Positions 8,412-17,267 of a DNA stretch of 17,463 nt are shown piece by piece. The number at the start of each line of letters is the position of its first letter. The stretch's first letter is position 1. Both the position numbers and the translations under genes were made by a program. The stretch comes from a bacterium (GTDB lineage: Bacteria; BMS3Abin14): assembly GCA_029210545.1 (NCBI GenBank), contig JARGFV010000050.1:1-17463 (forward strand), written 5' to 3'. The notes below the pieces were generated by a model that was not told where the DNA came from, did not search any database, and was given only the letters and a program-made list of their open reading frames with translations.

Positions 8412-9224
8412 ATGAGCAGGCAAAAGGTACGGCCCTTATCCCTTATCACTTATCCCTTGTCCCTTGGCTGCCTCCTGTTCCTGGTTTCCTGCGCTACCAA
8501 CCCTCCTGGCCGAACCCTGAGCGGTGTCGAAGGGCCCCTCCCTCCTCCCTCGAAAGAGGCACAAGCCCCCTCACAATCCGGCAAGATCTACACTGTCATG
8601 GGGCAGACTTATCGGGTCCTGGGGTCCTCGAGGGGTTATGTCGAGAGGGGAATGGCTTCATGGTACGGGACAAAGTTCCATGGCCGCAAGACCGCCAGCG
8701 GCGAGATCTACGACATGGACAAGTTCACAGCCGCCCACCGGACGCTGCCCCTCGGTACCTTCGTCAAGGTCAGGCGCACCGACTGCAGGGGGGAGTCGGT
8801 GGTGGTCCGCGTCAACGACAGGGGGCCCTTCGTGGATAACCGCGTCATCGATCTCTCCCGGGCGGCCGCGACCCAGCTCGACATGCTTGAGGAAGGGACG
8901 GCCGAGGTGACGATCACCGCCTTTGGCGAGGAGATCCTCCGGGGCAGGCCGGGAGAGGTCACCCTCAAGGCGCGGTACGATTATAACGAGGGGTCGTTCT
9001 CCGTCCAGGTTGGGGCGTTCACGGTCAAGGAGAACGCGCAGCGCCTTGCGTTGAGCATGAAGGCGGAACACGGCGCCGCCGACCTGTCCCTTTTTGACAG
9101 GGGCGACATGGTCTTTTTCCGGGTCAGGGTCGGCCGGTTTGAAAGCAGGGAGGAGGCAGAAGGGTTCAGGGACAACCTGATCCGTTCGGGCGAGTTCGGG
9201 CAGGCGTTCGTAGTGGCGCGATAG
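8412..9224 (+). CDS. rlpA: RlpA-like lipoprotein: septal lytic transglycosylase with SPOR domain
   Basis: A 270-residue lipoprotein. I start at 8412, since AGGAGG (8396-8401) lies ten bases upstream; the frame is open further back to 8358. A lipobox ends in LVSC with Cys27. The double-psi beta-barrel (79-171) carries MASWYG, E98, H109 (AAHRTLPLGT) and D136 (VRVNDRGPF), matching the catalytic-type residues of RlpA transglycosylases that cleave denuded peptidoglycan. A SPOR domain (194-269, GSFSVQVGAF) should target it to septal glycan. The hydrophobic core of the signal peptide is encoded by a heptamer tandem repeat (8433-8467), and residues 34-41 (RTLSGVEG) by another dispersed repeat, so the N-terminus has been built or rebuilt from repeat DNA. 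Confidence 0.92.
   Translation: MSRQKVRPLSLITYPLSLGCLLFLVSCATNPPGRTLSGVEGPLPPPSKEAQAPSQSGKIYTVMGQTYRVLGSSRGYVERGMASWYGTKFHGRKTASGEIYDMDKFTAAHRTLPLGTFVKVRRTDCRGESVVVRVNDRGPFVDNRVIDLSRAAATQLDMLEEGTAEVTITAFGEEILRGRPGEVTLKARYDYNEGSFSVQVGAFTVKENAQRLALSMKAEHGAADLSLFDRGDMVFFRVRVGRFESREEAEGFRDNLIRSGEFGQAFVVAR
8433..8467 (+). repeat. Heptamer tandem repeat inside the rlpA signal-peptide coding region
   Basis: Five seven-base units: cccttat, cccttat, cacttat, cccttgt, cccttgg. Because seven is not a multiple of three, the encoded peptide repeats every seven residues (PLSLITY then PLSLGCL). Confidence 0.85.
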
Positions 9225-9230
9225 CGCCGC

Positions 9231-9338
9231 GGAACAGGGAAGGACGAAGGAAGAAGGATGAAGGAAGAAGGGAATTTTTCAAGATTTTGCATTTTGAATG
9301 CGGAAGGTTTTCTTCCTCCTTCCTCCTTCCACCTCCTG
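9231..9338. repeat. Inverted pair of purine/pyrimidine heptamer tracts
   Basis: Six units at 9231-9272 (ggaacag, ggaagga, cgaagga, agaagga, tgaagga, agaaggg) face four units at 9311-9338 (tcttcct, ccttcct, ccttcca, cctcctg) in inverted orientation. The tracts fill the gap between rlpA and the PfkB gene and could form a long hairpin. Confidence 0.8.
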
Positions 9339-10227: not shown

Positions 10228-10998
10228 TCAGTCTCGGGGGAGACGGAACTTCCCCTTCGGGACCGATTCGTCCAGTGCCTGTTTCATCATTTTCACCAGG
10301 GTCATCTCCATCATCGCTCGCGTCGGCGCGGCGCCGTCGATGTAGACCTTGTCGTTCACCCAGATCTTGGGAACCGTCACGACCTTGTAGCGCTGGCTCA
10401 ACTCTGGATACTGTTGGCTTCCGAAGACCAGTGCCTTCACGCGGCTGCTCACTGAGGCCATGGCGTATGCGAGCCGGACCGGCTCGGGACAGAACACTCA
10501 TTCAGGGGTGGTGAAAATGCGGATCACCACCTCCTCTTCGAGACCGGCGAGGAAGGCTTCGACGGGAGGGGAGAACCTGAAAGGTTGTCCCGAGGCCAGG
10601 AGGATCCCGTCGAGGAACGGACGAACCTCCTGCCGTTCCGGGAATCCGTAATATCTCAAGATCCCACCCGTGGGGCCCTTCAATTCAATAACCGGCCCAT
10701 GGTCCACTTCCAGCTCTGATTTCGCTTCTTCGGTAAGTTCCCTCGGCACGATGATAAGGTTGGAAGATGTCCGGGCCATCAGGTCAACGAGGGTCTGGGT
10801 CTCCTCTCCCTGGTTTTCATTCTCGCCGCCCCGGTAGAGGAACAGCGTCACGGTTGAGGTGAGGGAGGCCAGGTTCTCCTGGACGATCTTTTTGGTCTCT
10901 TCGCTGATCCTTACCGGCGGCTTCCCGGCCTCCTTGCCGGAGGAACATGCGGTAAGGGTGAGAGCCAGCAGGACAGTGGTTACAATCTCATATCTCAT
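10228..10998 (-). CDS. Probable selenoprotein: tandem thioredoxin-fold lipoprotein (PDO-like) with UxxC active site
   Basis: A 256-residue reading if the single in-frame UGA (10500-10498) is decoded as selenocysteine. Both sides of the UGA belong to one domain: IFTTPE-U-VFC-PEPVRLAYAMA, where protein disulfide oxidoreductases have a CxxC motif. Sec would be residue 167 and its partner Cys170. The cis-proline loop follows as TVPKIWVND. Residues 1-18 form a lipoprotein signal (LTLTAC, Cys18). Residues 32-140 resemble the N-terminal thioredoxin fold of PDO/AhpF-type proteins, but its CxxC is missing (YRGGENENQGE). It is expected to be a cell-envelope thiol/disulfide oxidoreductase. The first codons (MRYEI) come from a heptamer repeat, and no clear Shine-Dalgarno is seen. 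The alternative is a nonsense-mutated gene or two separate genes; the SECIS-like hairpin argues against both. Confidence 0.82.
10470..10500 (-). promoter_or_regulatory. UGA selenocysteine codon and bacterial SECIS-like hairpin
   Basis: On the minus strand the UGA (10500-10498) is followed by 11 nt and then a 17-nt perfect hairpin, cgagccg-gtc-cggctcg (10486-10470). If the top pair opens, the apical loop is GGUCC. From memory, the minimal SECIS of E. coli fdhF is also a 17-nt stem-loop, 11 nt after the UGA, with GGUC at the tip. The bulged U of the fdhF stem is not present here. Confidence 0.8.
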
Positions 10999-11134
10999 AT
11001 CTCATATCTCTGGGGGGGAATGATCTCAAATCTCACATCTCATATCTCAGAGGAGAATAATCCAGATCTGTGGCGAGTTGTTCCGGTTTTTGGATTCTGA
11101 TCGATCTTTTTAAAATCTGAGATTTGAGATCTGA
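10987..11134. repeat. Heptamer tracts between cysteine synthase and the thioredoxin-fold gene
   Basis: Three units ctcatat (10987-11007), four units of atctcaa type (11023-11050) and three units aatctga, gatttga, gatctga (11114-11134). The last tract is in inverted orientation to the first two. The first tract overlaps the start codon and first residues of the gene ending at 10998. Confidence 0.8.
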
Positions 11135-12289: not shown

Positions 12290-12883
12290 TCAGGGGTCAG
12301 CCAACCGTTCCCAATCCTCCGGAGTGTTGATGTTAGCAAAAGGATCCCCTTCGCCTTCCACCGTCATAATTTCCGGGTTCGTGATCTTCAGGCCCTCGAG
12401 GGCCGCCATGATCCTGAAGGATCCCTTGTCGATGGCTTTTTTCATGGGAGCGGCGCAGCTTCGGGAGTAGAGGGCGCACAGCGGTTCGAAGCCCGTTGGC
12501 CCCCTGGGGATCACCGCGTCAACACCGCCTCGCATCCGGACCACCTGGTCGATGAGGGACGCGGATACGAATGGCATGTCGGCAGCCATGACGAAGACGG
12601 CGGGTGTGCCGGCGGTCATGACAGCTGTGTAAAGACCCCCGAGAGATCCTTTCCCGGGGATAAGGTCTTCGATGGCCCTGATCCCCAGGATGTGAAACTC
12701 CGGCCGGTCGTGACCGATGACCAGCACGTCGCTGAAAAGGGAAGAAAGAAGGGTGATCGATCTTTTGACCAGAGGTTCCCCGTCGACTTCGAGCAGCACC
12801 TTGTCCCTGCCGAACCTGCTGCTCTGTCCTCCAACCAGGACTGCTGCGCCGACCTCCCCGGGAAAAGGCACGCCAGGGGTCAT
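12290..12883 (-). CDS. mobA: MobA-like molybdenum cofactor guanylyltransferase
   Basis: A 197-residue nucleotidyltransferase that attaches GMP to molybdopterin to form the guanine dinucleotide cofactor used by formate dehydrogenases and related enzymes. The nucleotide-binding loop is LVGGQSSRFGRDK (16-28), the metal-binding motif AADMPF (100-105, D102), then GFEPLCALY (131-139) and the C-terminal NINTPED (184-190). The length is normal. The start overlaps the stop of the upstream globin-PsiE gene (ATGA, 12883-12880), so the two are translationally coupled. The related CTP-using MocA family is an alternative, but the NINTPED ending favours MobA. Confidence 0.9.
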   Translation of the reverse strand: MTPGVPFPGEVGAAVLVGGQSSRFGRDKVLLEVDGEPLVKRSITLLSSLFSDVLVIGHDRPEFHILGIRAIEDLIPGKGSLGGLYTAVMTAGTPAVFVMAADMPFVSASLIDQVVRMRGGVDAVIPRGPTGFEPLCALYSRSCAAPMKKAIDKGSFRIMAALEGLKITNPEIMTVEGEGDPFANINTPEDWERLADP

Positions 12884-13794
12884 TTGCCGCGGTCAGCGTG
12901 GGAGATGAGCCAGTACACCACGGCGAGGAGAAGCAGGGTGAAGACCCTGGTGCCGTAATCCATGAGGGTGGTGAGCTGGGCACCAGGGTTGGCGTGCTGC
13001 AGGGATCCGATGAGCACCTTCCTGATAAAGGCAACGATGACGATCCCGATGAAGATCGTAATGGGTATGTGACGTCCCCGCAGGTGCTGGATCTCGGTGC
13101 CGAGAAGCTCGATCATCATCCAGATGATAAGCAGGGAACCGAGAGCCCCCACAACTCCCGTTTCCAGGTGCTCGGCCCGGAAGATGTTGGCCACGTCCTG
13201 AATGAACAGCCACACCACGGCCAGGGACACGACAACCAAAGCCATCCCCAGGACGAGGTTCAGTCCATGGGTGAACCGCTCCAACAGGCTCATGAGGATC
13301 GATTCGGCCCTGGCGTTGAGGAAATACTTCTTCAACTCGGCCTGCCGGTAGGAACTGGTGAGCACGTCCAGGTTGATGTCCAGGATCTTGGTAATGGCTG
13401 TCGTGACCTTTTCCCGGTCCTCGGCCGGAATGTCCTGCTCGATCACCTCGGTCAGGAACTGCCTCACCTTGGTCATGGTGGAGTTGACAAGGTGGCCGTC
13501 GAGGTTGATGCCCACGTGGACCCTGCCGACTTTCCGCAGCTGCTGGAAATAGGCCTCATCGTAGGTCCCGGAAAAAAGCCTCATGAACCAGCCGGCAAAG
13601 GTCATGGCGTGATGGTTCTGCTTCGCCTCCGTGGGGAAAAAGTCAGCCATGAACTCGTGGGAAAGGAAATAGGCCATCAGTTCCGTCCCGAACCTGTCCC
13701 GGTGTTTCTTCATGGTGGAGGCAAGCTCTCCGAGAAGTTTTTCCTCGGCGGAGGTCAGTTCGTAATGGGCCTTGATCTTTTTGACGGTGATCAT
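12880..13794 (-). CDS. Protoglobin (globin-coupled sensor) fused to a PsiE-type membrane domain
   Basis: A 304-residue protein. Residues about 10-160 look like a protoglobin/globin-coupled-sensor heme domain: FGTELMAYFLSH, then RKVGRVHVGINLDG with H93 in the place of the proximal heme ligand. Residues about 170-300 form a four-helix membrane domain (roughly 178-200, 212-234, 243-263, 281-298) resembling the PsiE family, with ELLGTEIQHLRG and IVIVAFIRKVLIG as the clearest matches. The combination suggests a membrane protein that senses O2, NO or redox through heme. No kinase, cyclase or methyl-acceptor domain is present, so the output is unknown. AAAGGA precedes the start. It is coupled to mobA by an ATGA overlap and follows a small unknown gene. 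Confidence 0.8.
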   Translation of the reverse strand: MITVKKIKAHYELTSAEEKLLGELASTMKKHRDRFGTELMAYFLSHEFMADFFPTEAKQNHHAMTFAGWFMRLFSGTYDEAYFQQLRKVGRVHVGINLDGHLVNSTMTKVRQFLTEVIEQDIPAEDREKVTTAITKILDINLDVLTSSYRQAELKKYFLNARAESILMSLLERFTHGLNLVLGMALVVVSLAVVWLFIQDVANIFRAEHLETGVVGALGSLLIIWMMIELLGTEIQHLRGRHIPITIFIGIVIVAFIRKVLIGSLQHANPGAQLTTLMDYGTRVFTLLLLAVVYWLISHADRGK

Positions 13795-14795: not shown

Positions 14796-15965
14796 ATGGC
14801 CAAAGTGAAGAAGAGTTTCGAGGAGATCAACGAGCGGATCCGGTCCGGCAAGGCCGTTGTCCTCACCGCCGACGAGATGTCCGATCTCGTGGACGAGGTG
14901 GGGGCGGCCAAGGCTGCCAGCGAGGTGGATGTCGTCACCACAGGGACCTTTGGGATGATGTGCTCCTCGGGCGCCATGTTCAACTTCGGGCACACGAGTC
15001 CCAAGATCAAGTCGGAAAAGGTCTGGTTCAACGACGTACCCGCCTATGCGGGCCTGGCTGCCGTGGACACCTTTCTCGGTGCCACCGAACCCCGGGAGGA
15101 CGATCCGTTAAACAGGGTCTATCCGGGCCGTTTCCCCTACGGGGGCGCCCACGTCATCGAGGACCTGGTAGCGGGCAGGAAGGTGGACATCCGGGTCACC
15201 GCTTACGGAACGGACTGCTATCCGTCCAGGAAGGCCGAACTTGAAAAGTCCCTGGACGAGATCCCCTATGCGGTGCTCTTAAACCCCCGGAACGGATACC
15301 AGAGCTACAACTGTGCCGTGAATATGGGTGAAAAGACGATCTATACCTACATGGGGGTCCTGAAGCCCGACGGCAGCAACGCCACCTACTGCAGCGCGGG
15401 ACAGCTGTCTCCCCTCCTCAACGACCCCCTGTACCGGACTATCGGGCTGGGGACGAGGATCTTCCTGGGCGGTGGGGAGGGTTTTGTCATCTGGCACGGG
15501 ACACAGCACAACCCCAACGCTCCGAGAGGGGAAAACGGGGTGGTCCGTACACCGGCCGGAACCCTCGCCGTCATGGGCGACCTCAAGGGGATGCAACAGC
15601 GGTACCTGAGGGGGGCCAGCATGCTGGGATACGGTATCACCCTGTTTGTCGGGCTGGGTATCCCTATCCCTATCCTCGACGAGGAGATGGCCCGCTTCAC
15701 AGCCGTCAGGGACAAGGACATCTTCACCAATATCGTGGATTACGCGGAGGCCTATCCCCAGGGGACAGGCAAGACTCTCGGTGAGATCAGCTACGAGGAA
15801 CTGCAAAGCGGCACGATCAGGTTCAACGGCAAGGAGATCACAACGGCGCCCCTTTCAAGCTACTCCATGGCACTGGAAATAGCCCGGGAACTCAAGCGGT
15901 GGATCCTCGAGGAACGGTTCATCCTCGGCGTTCCGCAAAAACCGCTGCCCGGTCCAAGGGCATGA
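14796..15965 (+). CDS. Homocysteine biosynthesis protein (DUF39/COG1900)
   Basis: A 389-residue protein of the DUF39 family. From memory, members in Methanosarcina acetivorans act with a NIL-ferredoxin and a COG2122 protein to make homocysteine from aspartate semialdehyde and sulfide, bypassing the usual O-acyl-homoserine route. Residues 43-80 (VDVVTTGTFGMMCSSGAMFNFG) and the GTDCYPS segment with C141 are characteristic. C56, C141, C173 and C199 are the cysteines to consider for a persulfide or thiol role. It lacks the C-terminal CBS pair found in the methanogen version. AAGGAG lies seven bases before the ATG. It is the first gene of the riboswitch-controlled operon. Confidence 0.93.
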   Translation: MAKVKKSFEEINERIRSGKAVVLTADEMSDLVDEVGAAKAASEVDVVTTGTFGMMCSSGAMFNFGHTSPKIKSEKVWFNDVPAYAGLAAVDTFLGATEPREDDPLNRVYPGRFPYGGAHVIEDLVAGRKVDIRVTAYGTDCYPSRKAELEKSLDEIPYAVLLNPRNGYQSYNCAVNMGEKTIYTYMGVLKPDGSNATYCSAGQLSPLLNDPLYRTIGLGTRIFLGGGEGFVIWHGTQHNPNAPRGENGVVRTPAGTLAVMGDLKGMQQRYLRGASMLGYGITLFVGLGIPIPILDEEMARFTAVRDKDIFTNIVDYAEAYPQGTGKTLGEISYEELQSGTIRFNGKEITTAPLSSYSMALEIARELKRWILEERFILGVPQKPLPGPRA

Positions 15966-15968
15966 CCG

Positions 15969-16778
15969 ATGATGCTTCGTGCCGGTTTTGGCAACAGGGA
16001 TTATCGTGAAGGCCCGGCTCCCGGGGGGCTGGTGTCTTTCAGGGCAGTGGTTGATGAGACGGACCTGTGGATCGCCGCCCGTGAGAATCTCACCGCCGCT
16101 GCCCTTGCGTCCATCAGGAAACACCGGGCCGGTGTGGAAGAGTACATCGGTGAGCATCCGGGTTTTGCCTCCGCCCTCAAGCCGTGGGTCGTCAAGGTGC
16201 CTCACGGGTCGCTGGTGAGCCGCATGACCGAAGCTGCTGCGGCAGTGGGTATAGGGCCCATGGCCGCGGTGGCCGGCACCATCGCCGAAGCGGTTGCACG
16301 GGACCTGAACCTGAGATCCGGGCAGGTCGTTGTTGAGAACGGCGGCGACCTGTACCTGATCGGGGGCCGCCCCAGGCGTATCGGGATCTGGGCCGGCAAA
16401 TCGCCCCTGACCAACCGGGTGGGCCTTGAAGTCGTCCCGGGTGGCGGGATAGCCGTGTGCACCTCGTCGGGAACGGTGGGGCCGTCCCTGAGTTTCGGAA
16501 AGGCCGACGCCGCGGTTGTGATCTCACGATCGGGCGCTCTTGCCGACGCCGCTGCCACCGCATTGGGAAACCGGGTCAACGGCCCCGGCGATGTGGAGTC
16601 TGCCCTGGACTGGGCCATGTCGGTCACAGGAATTACCGGAGCTGTCGTAGTCCTGGGCAGCACTATCGGAGCCAAGGGGCAAGTGGAACTCGTTCCACTC
16701 GCTGATCCAAAATCCAAGATCCAAGATCCAAAATCCAAAATCCAAGATTCAAAATCCAGGATCCAAAATCCAAAATAG
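15969..16778 (+). CDS. UPF0280 (COG2122) ApbE-related protein, sulfide-assimilation partner
   Basis: A 269-residue protein. ENGGDLYLIGG (123-133) and GALADAAATALGN (189-201) mark the UPF0280 family, a distant relative of the flavin transferase ApbE. A methanogen homologue is reported, from memory, to help deliver sulfur for homocysteine synthesis, and the operon position between DUF39 and NIL-ferredoxin supports that role here. The gap to DUF39 is only three bases. The natural C-terminus probably lies near residue 245. The last 24 residues (DPKSKIQ repeated) are translated from a ten-unit heptamer tract that runs up to the stop codon. Such a tail is unlikely to be part of the conserved fold. 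Confidence 0.88.
   Translation: MMLRAGFGNRDYREGPAPGGLVSFRAVVDETDLWIAARENLTAAALASIRKHRAGVEEYIGEHPGFASALKPWVVKVPHGSLVSRMTEAAAAVGIGPMAAVAGTIAEAVARDLNLRSGQVVVENGGDLYLIGGRPRRIGIWAGKSPLTNRVGLEVVPGGGIAVCTSSGTVGPSLSFGKADAAVVISRSGALADAAATALGNRVNGPGDVESALDWAMSVTGITGAVVVLGSTIGAKGQVELVPLADPKSKIQDPKSKIQDSKSRIQNPK
16706..16775 (+). repeat. Ten-unit heptamer tandem repeat in the UPF0280 gene 3' end
   Basis: Ten consecutive seven-base units of the form tccaaaa or tccaaga run without a break to the TAG stop at 16776. An inverted fragment (attttggat) follows at 16813-16821. This is the longest heptamer tract in the window. Confidence 0.9.
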
Positions 16779-16856
16779 GATCTTCGGTGTGGTTGCCTGC
16801 CCTGGATCTGGTATTTTGGATGTATAAATTTCACGCTGAATAAGAGGAAATTTATT

Positions 16857-17267
16857 ATGGAAAAGACAATTATAGTCCGCTTCACCAAACAAACCTGGAA
16901 CACACCCGTCATCCACGGTCTTTCCAGGAAAGCCGACCTGGTCTTCAATATCCTCGAGGCCAAGGTCCTGCCGCGCCAGGAGGCCTATGCCATCATGAAT
17001 CTGGAAGGGACCGCGGTGGAGTACGCCAAGGGGATCGAGTATCTCAAGTCGTGCAACGTGCTCATCGAGGAGGTCACGGATACCATACAGCGGGACGAGG
17101 ACAGCTGTGTTCACTGCGGGGCCTGCTTGACCGTGTGTCCTTCAGGCGCCCTTTACGTGGACGGGCCGGAAAGGAAGGTGGCCCTCGAAAAGGACAGGTG
17201 CATCGCCTGCGGAAACTGCGTCGATGTGTGCACGGTGCATTGCATGAGTTTGTACATCTTTTCCTGA
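16857..17267 (+). CDS. NIL domain fused to a 2[4Fe-4S] ferredoxin, homocysteine synthesis electron carrier
   Basis: A 136-residue protein. Residues 1-75 form a NIL-type ACT-like domain, as also found in methionine ABC-transporter ATPases. Residues 80-130 form a two-cluster ferredoxin: C84, C87, C90, C94 (CVHCGACLTVCP) and C115, C118, C121, C125, with an extra C129. In the methanogen system, as I recall, this is the redox partner of the DUF39 protein and supplies electrons for converting aspartate semialdehyde plus sulfide to homocysteine. AAGAGGA lies eight bases before the ATG. It is the third gene of the SAM-controlled operon, 78 bases after the second. Confidence 0.93.
   Translation: MEKTIIVRFTKQTWNTPVIHGLSRKADLVFNILEAKVLPRQEAYAIMNLEGTAVEYAKGIEYLKSCNVLIEEVTDTIQRDEDSCVHCGACLTVCPSGALYVDGPERKVALEKDRCIACGNCVDVCTVHCMSLYIFS

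Follow-up and report, generated by a model that had tools for sequence, protein, structure and literature searches.

A UGA-containing gene for a predicted lipid-anchored selenoprotein with two thioredoxin folds in a barely described bacterial phylum

Results

The minus-strand gene at 10998-10228 of the window, as we call the whole 17,463-nt stretch of DNA that was analyzed, is predicted to encode a selenoprotein, with a probability of about 95% as judged from its sequence and those of its relatives. Its internal UGA occupies one alignment column, the spacing to a following hairpin and the hairpin itself are kept in all seven members of the clade, homologues have a cysteine at the UGA position, and machinery for selenocysteine (Sec) is present in the genome. 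Taken together, this makes it very probable that the gene is a real selenoprotein gene. The features discussed below are listed in Table 1.

Table 1. Features of the UGA-containing gene and its conserved neighbors in the window
Feature	Start	End	Strand	Remarks
UGA-containing gene, tandem thioredoxin-fold lipoprotein (256 aa, Sec167), predicted	10228	10998	minus	stop TGA at 10230-10228
Internal UGA, residue 167, position 1 of the UxxC site	10498	10500	minus	UGA in 7/7 clade members, Cys in homologues
SECIS-like hairpin, 17 nt, CGAGCCGGUCCGGCUCG	10470	10486	minus	11 nt past the UGA
Predicted lipoprotein signal peptide, lipobox LTAC with Cys18	10945	10998	minus	sequence pattern, Cys invariant in 7/7
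First thioredoxin-like fold, approximately residues 31-155, without Cys	10534	10908	minus	AF2 model, fold matches
Second thioredoxin-like fold, approximately residues 156-243, U167-V-F-C170 and conserved VP loop (P210)	10270	10533	minus	Pfam Thioredoxin_3, AF2
cysK-type PLP enzyme	11145	12068	minus	immediate upstream neighbor, kept in 5/5 relatives with that side visible
mobA-like nucleotidyltransferase	12290	12883	minus	conserved neighbor
Protoglobin-PsiE membrane fusion	12880	13794	minus	conserved neighbor

An in-frame UGA conserved among relatives

The reading frame opens with ATG at 10998, runs for 166 codons to the internal TGA, continues in frame for another 89 codons and closes with a second TGA. 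The UGA is the sole interruption in these 256 codons, and the two contiguous same-frame segments that the original prediction had described as parted by UGA alone were found at their coordinates. It also held that the UGA stands in place of the first Cys of a CxxC motif (TTPE-U-VFC-PEP), which is the case, at residue 167. The only cysteines of the protein are C18 and C170. Because the codon directly 3' of the UGA is GTG, gene finders can split the gene.

Twelve genomes of the phylum, all from one family, were sampled, and seven of them, including that of the window, contain the gene. Each of the seven clade members has a single internal TGA, always at one and the same alignment column, and no other internal stop; a search of the relatives for further nonsense mutations, proposed earlier as a check, thus revealed none. 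The six relatives share 36-55% identity with the window protein, indicating that the conservation of the UGA is old and not the legacy of a recent common mutation. Past the UGA, residues C170, P171, V209-P210 and Q240-D243 are invariant in the clade. In archaeal homologues and in those of other bacterial families, Cys occupies the UGA column, in CPYC-type sites, which is what an alignment had been expected to reveal. The gene was not found in the remaining five of the 12 genomes, one of which is 100% complete. Remnants were sought in that complete relative and none was detected; cysK is followed there directly by the rlpA-like gene, and the absence is a clean loss, not decay.

A conserved hairpin downstream of the UGA

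A spacer of 11 nt (10497-10487) separates the UGA from the 17-nt sequence CGAGCCGGUCCGGCUCG, which is self-complementary over 7 bp and has GGUC at its tip, confirming the hairpin that had been proposed at this position. We take this 17-nt/11-nt geometry to be that of the minimal fdhF SECIS of E. coli. Folding of the RNA after the UGA, also suggested as a check, gave an energy of -11.3 kcal/mol for the hairpin and a z of -2.5 against dinucleotide shuffles, and no other among the 244 17-nt segments of the gene, sampled at codon steps, was as stable. The window contains 569 TGA triplets (both strands, all frames), and UGA167 is the only one with a 17-nt hairpin of at least six Watson-Crick pairs at +11; mononucleotide-shuffled windows give 0.12 such TGA-hairpin pairs on average.

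The distance of 11 nt between UGA and hairpin is kept without gaps in 7/7 clade members. Of the seven base pairs, the outer six are formed by every clade member (42 of 42 cells paired; sliding one strand by 1-3 columns lowers this to 12-40%), and two relatives lack the seventh pair beside the tip. Variation is seen at three pairs, and at one of these it affects both partners (C-G, U-G, U-A). Since this single compensatory change is not above what within-column shuffling of the seven sequences yields, covariation by itself is weak evidence. Codon choice is a stronger indication of selection on the hairpin: at same-amino-acid pairs among the seven sequences, identical codons make up 82% in the hairpin, compared to 40% upstream and 47% downstream, which is most naturally read as selection on the RNA beyond that on the protein.

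Selenium machinery of the genome

The genome of the window contains tRNA-Sec (74.3 bits with Rfam at a cut-off of 47, and also found by ARAGORN), selA (598 bits) and selB (363 bits). The latter two genes are adjacent and directly follow a gene for formate dehydrogenase, which itself contains one in-frame UGA. The original prediction called for a search of the genome for selA, selB, selD and tRNA-Sec and regarded selB and tRNA-Sec as decisive; these two are both present, as is selA, and only selD gave no match above the cut-off in this 241-contig draft assembly. Among six relatives searched, five have selD (L089-L093), and its absence is therefore read as a gap in the draft, the likeliest explanation. 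All five copies have a single TGA interruption, which makes SelD a probable selenoprotein of these relatives; by this sequence pattern selenophosphate synthetase probably is one in the phylum.

Fold and predicted membrane anchor

The N-terminus of the protein follows the pattern of a bacterial lipoprotein signal peptide, by which the product would be a lipoprotein. A hydrophobic stretch precedes Cys18, and the lipobox takes the forms LTAC, LPSC, FLSC, LAAC, LAGC, ASAC and VLSC in the seven clade members. Pfam Thioredoxin_3 matches the second half of the protein, and the AF2 model, calculated with 20 sequences, has a mean pLDDT of 91 and a pTM of 0.86. In fold comparisons the model matched Pyrococcus PDO with a Z of 26 (208-209 residues, 2.1-2.2 Å) and the AhpF N-terminal domain with a Z of 24, and single thioredoxins came far below (Z 10 and less). 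A CxxC in the first thioredoxin fold was found in none of the seven clade members. In the model, the UGA lies within the second fold, with the first strand of that fold before it and the active-site helix after it. A product of 166 residues could therefore not be complete, and the downstream part is not a complete domain, in agreement with what had been proposed.

Alternative readings of the UGA

A frame that is interrupted by a stop, in a gene that is missing from five genomes of the phylum, could also be a pseudogene, an ordinary CxxC oxidoreductase gene cut short by a nonsense mutation. We consider this extremely improbable, as the interruption is TGA and never TAA or TAG in seven genomes that differ as widely in protein sequence as given above (36-55% identity), no other stop or frameshift accompanies it, and the sequence 3' of the UGA is conserved and includes the invariant residues C170, P171, V209-P210 and Q240-D243. 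This conservation pattern rules the pseudogene out. Alternatively, the GTG directly after the UGA in the window might mark the start of a second gene, with the first gene ending at the UGA. In the seven genomes, however, the codon at this place is GTG, ACG, ACT, GGG, AGC, CCT or CCG, and this variation excludes a second start there. Moreover, the division would fall inside one thioredoxin fold of the AF2 model. With no start codon kept and a cut within a fold, a pair of genes has hardly any chance of being correct and was rejected.

That the UGA of this gene is read through would also be explained by a genome-wide reassignment of UGA to Trp or Gly, the situation of genetic codes 4 and 25. A number of intact genes in the window nevertheless end at TGA (dtxR-like, spoU, panE, cyclophilin, mobA and hcyBio), and so does the selenoprotein gene itself, which shows that the code is not reassigned. 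The homologues have Cys at the column instead of Trp or Gly, and the Sec machinery is present. A recoded genetic code is ruled out on these grounds, and its probability is negligible.

Relation to known families

Among protein families, TIGR02187 ('protein disulfide oxidoreductase') matches the window protein best, with 134 bits and an E-value of 4e-39 over positions 2-205 of 209, and all seven clade members match this family. The score is below the NCBIfam equivalog cut-off of 185 bits, which makes the window protein a relative of TIGR02187 and not an equivalog member as curated. The C/U-x-x-C redox site that TIGR02187 PDO/seleno-TRX proteins require in the second fold is present. The tandem-fold UxxC selenoproteins of this family have been known since 2006 (PMC1794560, PMC9312934, PMC13188914); they are tabulated under TIGR02187 (PMC9312934, PMC13188914), and Asgard members exist as well (PMC11227280). 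They share with the window protein two thioredoxin folds and a UGA-coded UxxC site in the second, whereas the window protein stands apart by its score below the equivalog cut-off, its lipoprotein signal and its Cys-free first fold. Archaeal PDO (1a8l, 1j08) has the same fold across nearly the whole length, but with a CxxC in each fold, Cys at both second-fold positions and no lipobox. The AhpF N-terminal domain (1zyn, 4o5q, 5h29) resembles the window protein in having one redox-active pair, located in the second fold; unlike the free-standing window protein, which is predicted to be exported and to contain Sec, it is a cytosolic domain joined to a flavin reductase.

Relatives turned up in 89 of the 386 genomes scanned, and among these 13 UxxC members from other families were read. 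The first-fold CxxC is kept in 12 of these 13, the exception being G096. This UxxC relative without a first-fold CxxC, L133 (G096), also has no lipobox. Two other UxxC relatives from other families, L126 and L131, have a lipobox at the start and keep the first-fold CxxC. With these 2 of 13 carrying a lipobox, envelope anchoring is not unique to the branch of the window protein. In the tree, the seven clade members form one fully supported branch on a long stem, and two UxxC members of other families neighbor it with weak support (89/30). No relative was found in viral contigs.

The hint of novelty given earlier holds in part. A tandem-fold UxxC family, TIGR02187, was already described in the papers cited above (PMC1794560, PMC9312934, PMC13188914), but a description of its lipoprotein branch was not found in the open-licence literature, and the word 'lipoprotein' does not occur in the reviews PMC9312934 and PMC13188914. 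What is distinctive in the branch is the combination of a lipobox with a Cys-free first fold, leaving the lipidation Cys and the UxxC site, and the conserved protoglobin-mobA-cysK neighborhood.

Gene neighborhood

The mobA gene and the protoglobin-PsiE fusion come next after cysK in 4/4 relatives with a contig that reaches so far. Downstream of the selenoprotein gene, pfkB, the rlpA-like gene and a cyclophilin gene are in convergent orientation. The link to cysK suggests a possible role of the product in sulfur or cysteine redox.

Some further features of the window were observed. The fusion at 12880-13794 (minus strand) joins a protoglobin domain to a PsiE-type membrane domain, i.e., it is a membrane-anchored globin. 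On the plus strand, at 14796-17267, a row of genes for HcyBio (homocysteine biosynthesis), an unassigned protein and a NIL-ferredoxin resembles sulfide-based homocysteine synthesis. Short tandem repeats with a period of 7 bases and differing sequences occur at 8433-8465, 9239-9271, 10985-11010 and 16705-16776; one of them (ATGAGAT, minus strand) includes the start codon of the selenoprotein gene, and the 3' end of the reading frame 15969-16778 consists of another.

Discussion

The sequences establish the reading frame, the conserved UGA, the hairpin, the Sec machinery, the fold family and the lipobox, and from these we infer Sec insertion at UGA167 as well as the lipidation, location and redox chemistry of the product. 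With the hairpin at 11 nt past the codon as the signal, SelB and Sec-tRNA would decode UGA167 as selenocysteine. The protein would be exported and membrane-anchored, with Cys18 as its probable site of lipidation. Its two fused thioredoxin folds would be of the PDO/AhpF-N-terminal type, of which the Cys-free first is probably structural, and the second would hold the only redox pair, Sec167-x-x-Cys170, for electron exchange with envelope disulfides. The protein is likely to function as a membrane-anchored thiol/selenol-disulfide oxidoreductase, and a role in envelope disulfide exchange appears somewhat favored. The interpretation of the original prediction, a Sec-containing envelope disulfide oxidoreductase, finds support in selB, tRNA-Sec, the Cys homologues and the lipobox Cys in 7/7 members.

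The selenoprotein might instead serve a reduction of peroxide, persulfide or cystine that is linked to sulfur assimilation, and not protein disulfide exchange. This fits with cysK being the immediate upstream gene in 5/5 relatives in which that side is seen, with the HcyBio homocysteine-synthesis gene nearby, and with a fold like that of the N-terminal part of AhpF, a domain that supplies a peroxidase with electrons. However, the argument is one from the neighborhood only, a cytosolic location is expected for CysK but an extracytosolic one for the lipoprotein, and no peroxiredoxin gene is adjacent within the window. We regard such a role as rather unlikely.

Neither DsbD/CcdA (PF02683) nor VKOR (PF07884) was found in the genome of the window, which leaves it with no known envelope electron partner; VKOR is present in 4/12 genomes of the phylum. 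A doubtful proposal, to which we give little credence, is that phylum-specific membrane-anchored seleno-oxidoreductases with a single redox pair operate an envelope thiol pathway independent of both DsbD/CcdA and VKOR. If this were true, extracytoplasmic selenocysteine chemistry would depend on an undescribed electron partner.

The phylum is barely described, and because automatic annotation splits genes of this kind or calls them broken, its selenoprotein set is under-counted. The branch represents a single-site form, predicted to be lipid-anchored, of a selenoprotein family that has so far been given only a predicted function. As all cysteines except the lipidation Cys and the partner in the UxxC site are gone, members of the branch would be a clean subject for biochemical work on envelope selenocysteine. 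With them, the family, which has been known since 2006, gains a branch with a predicted envelope anchor.
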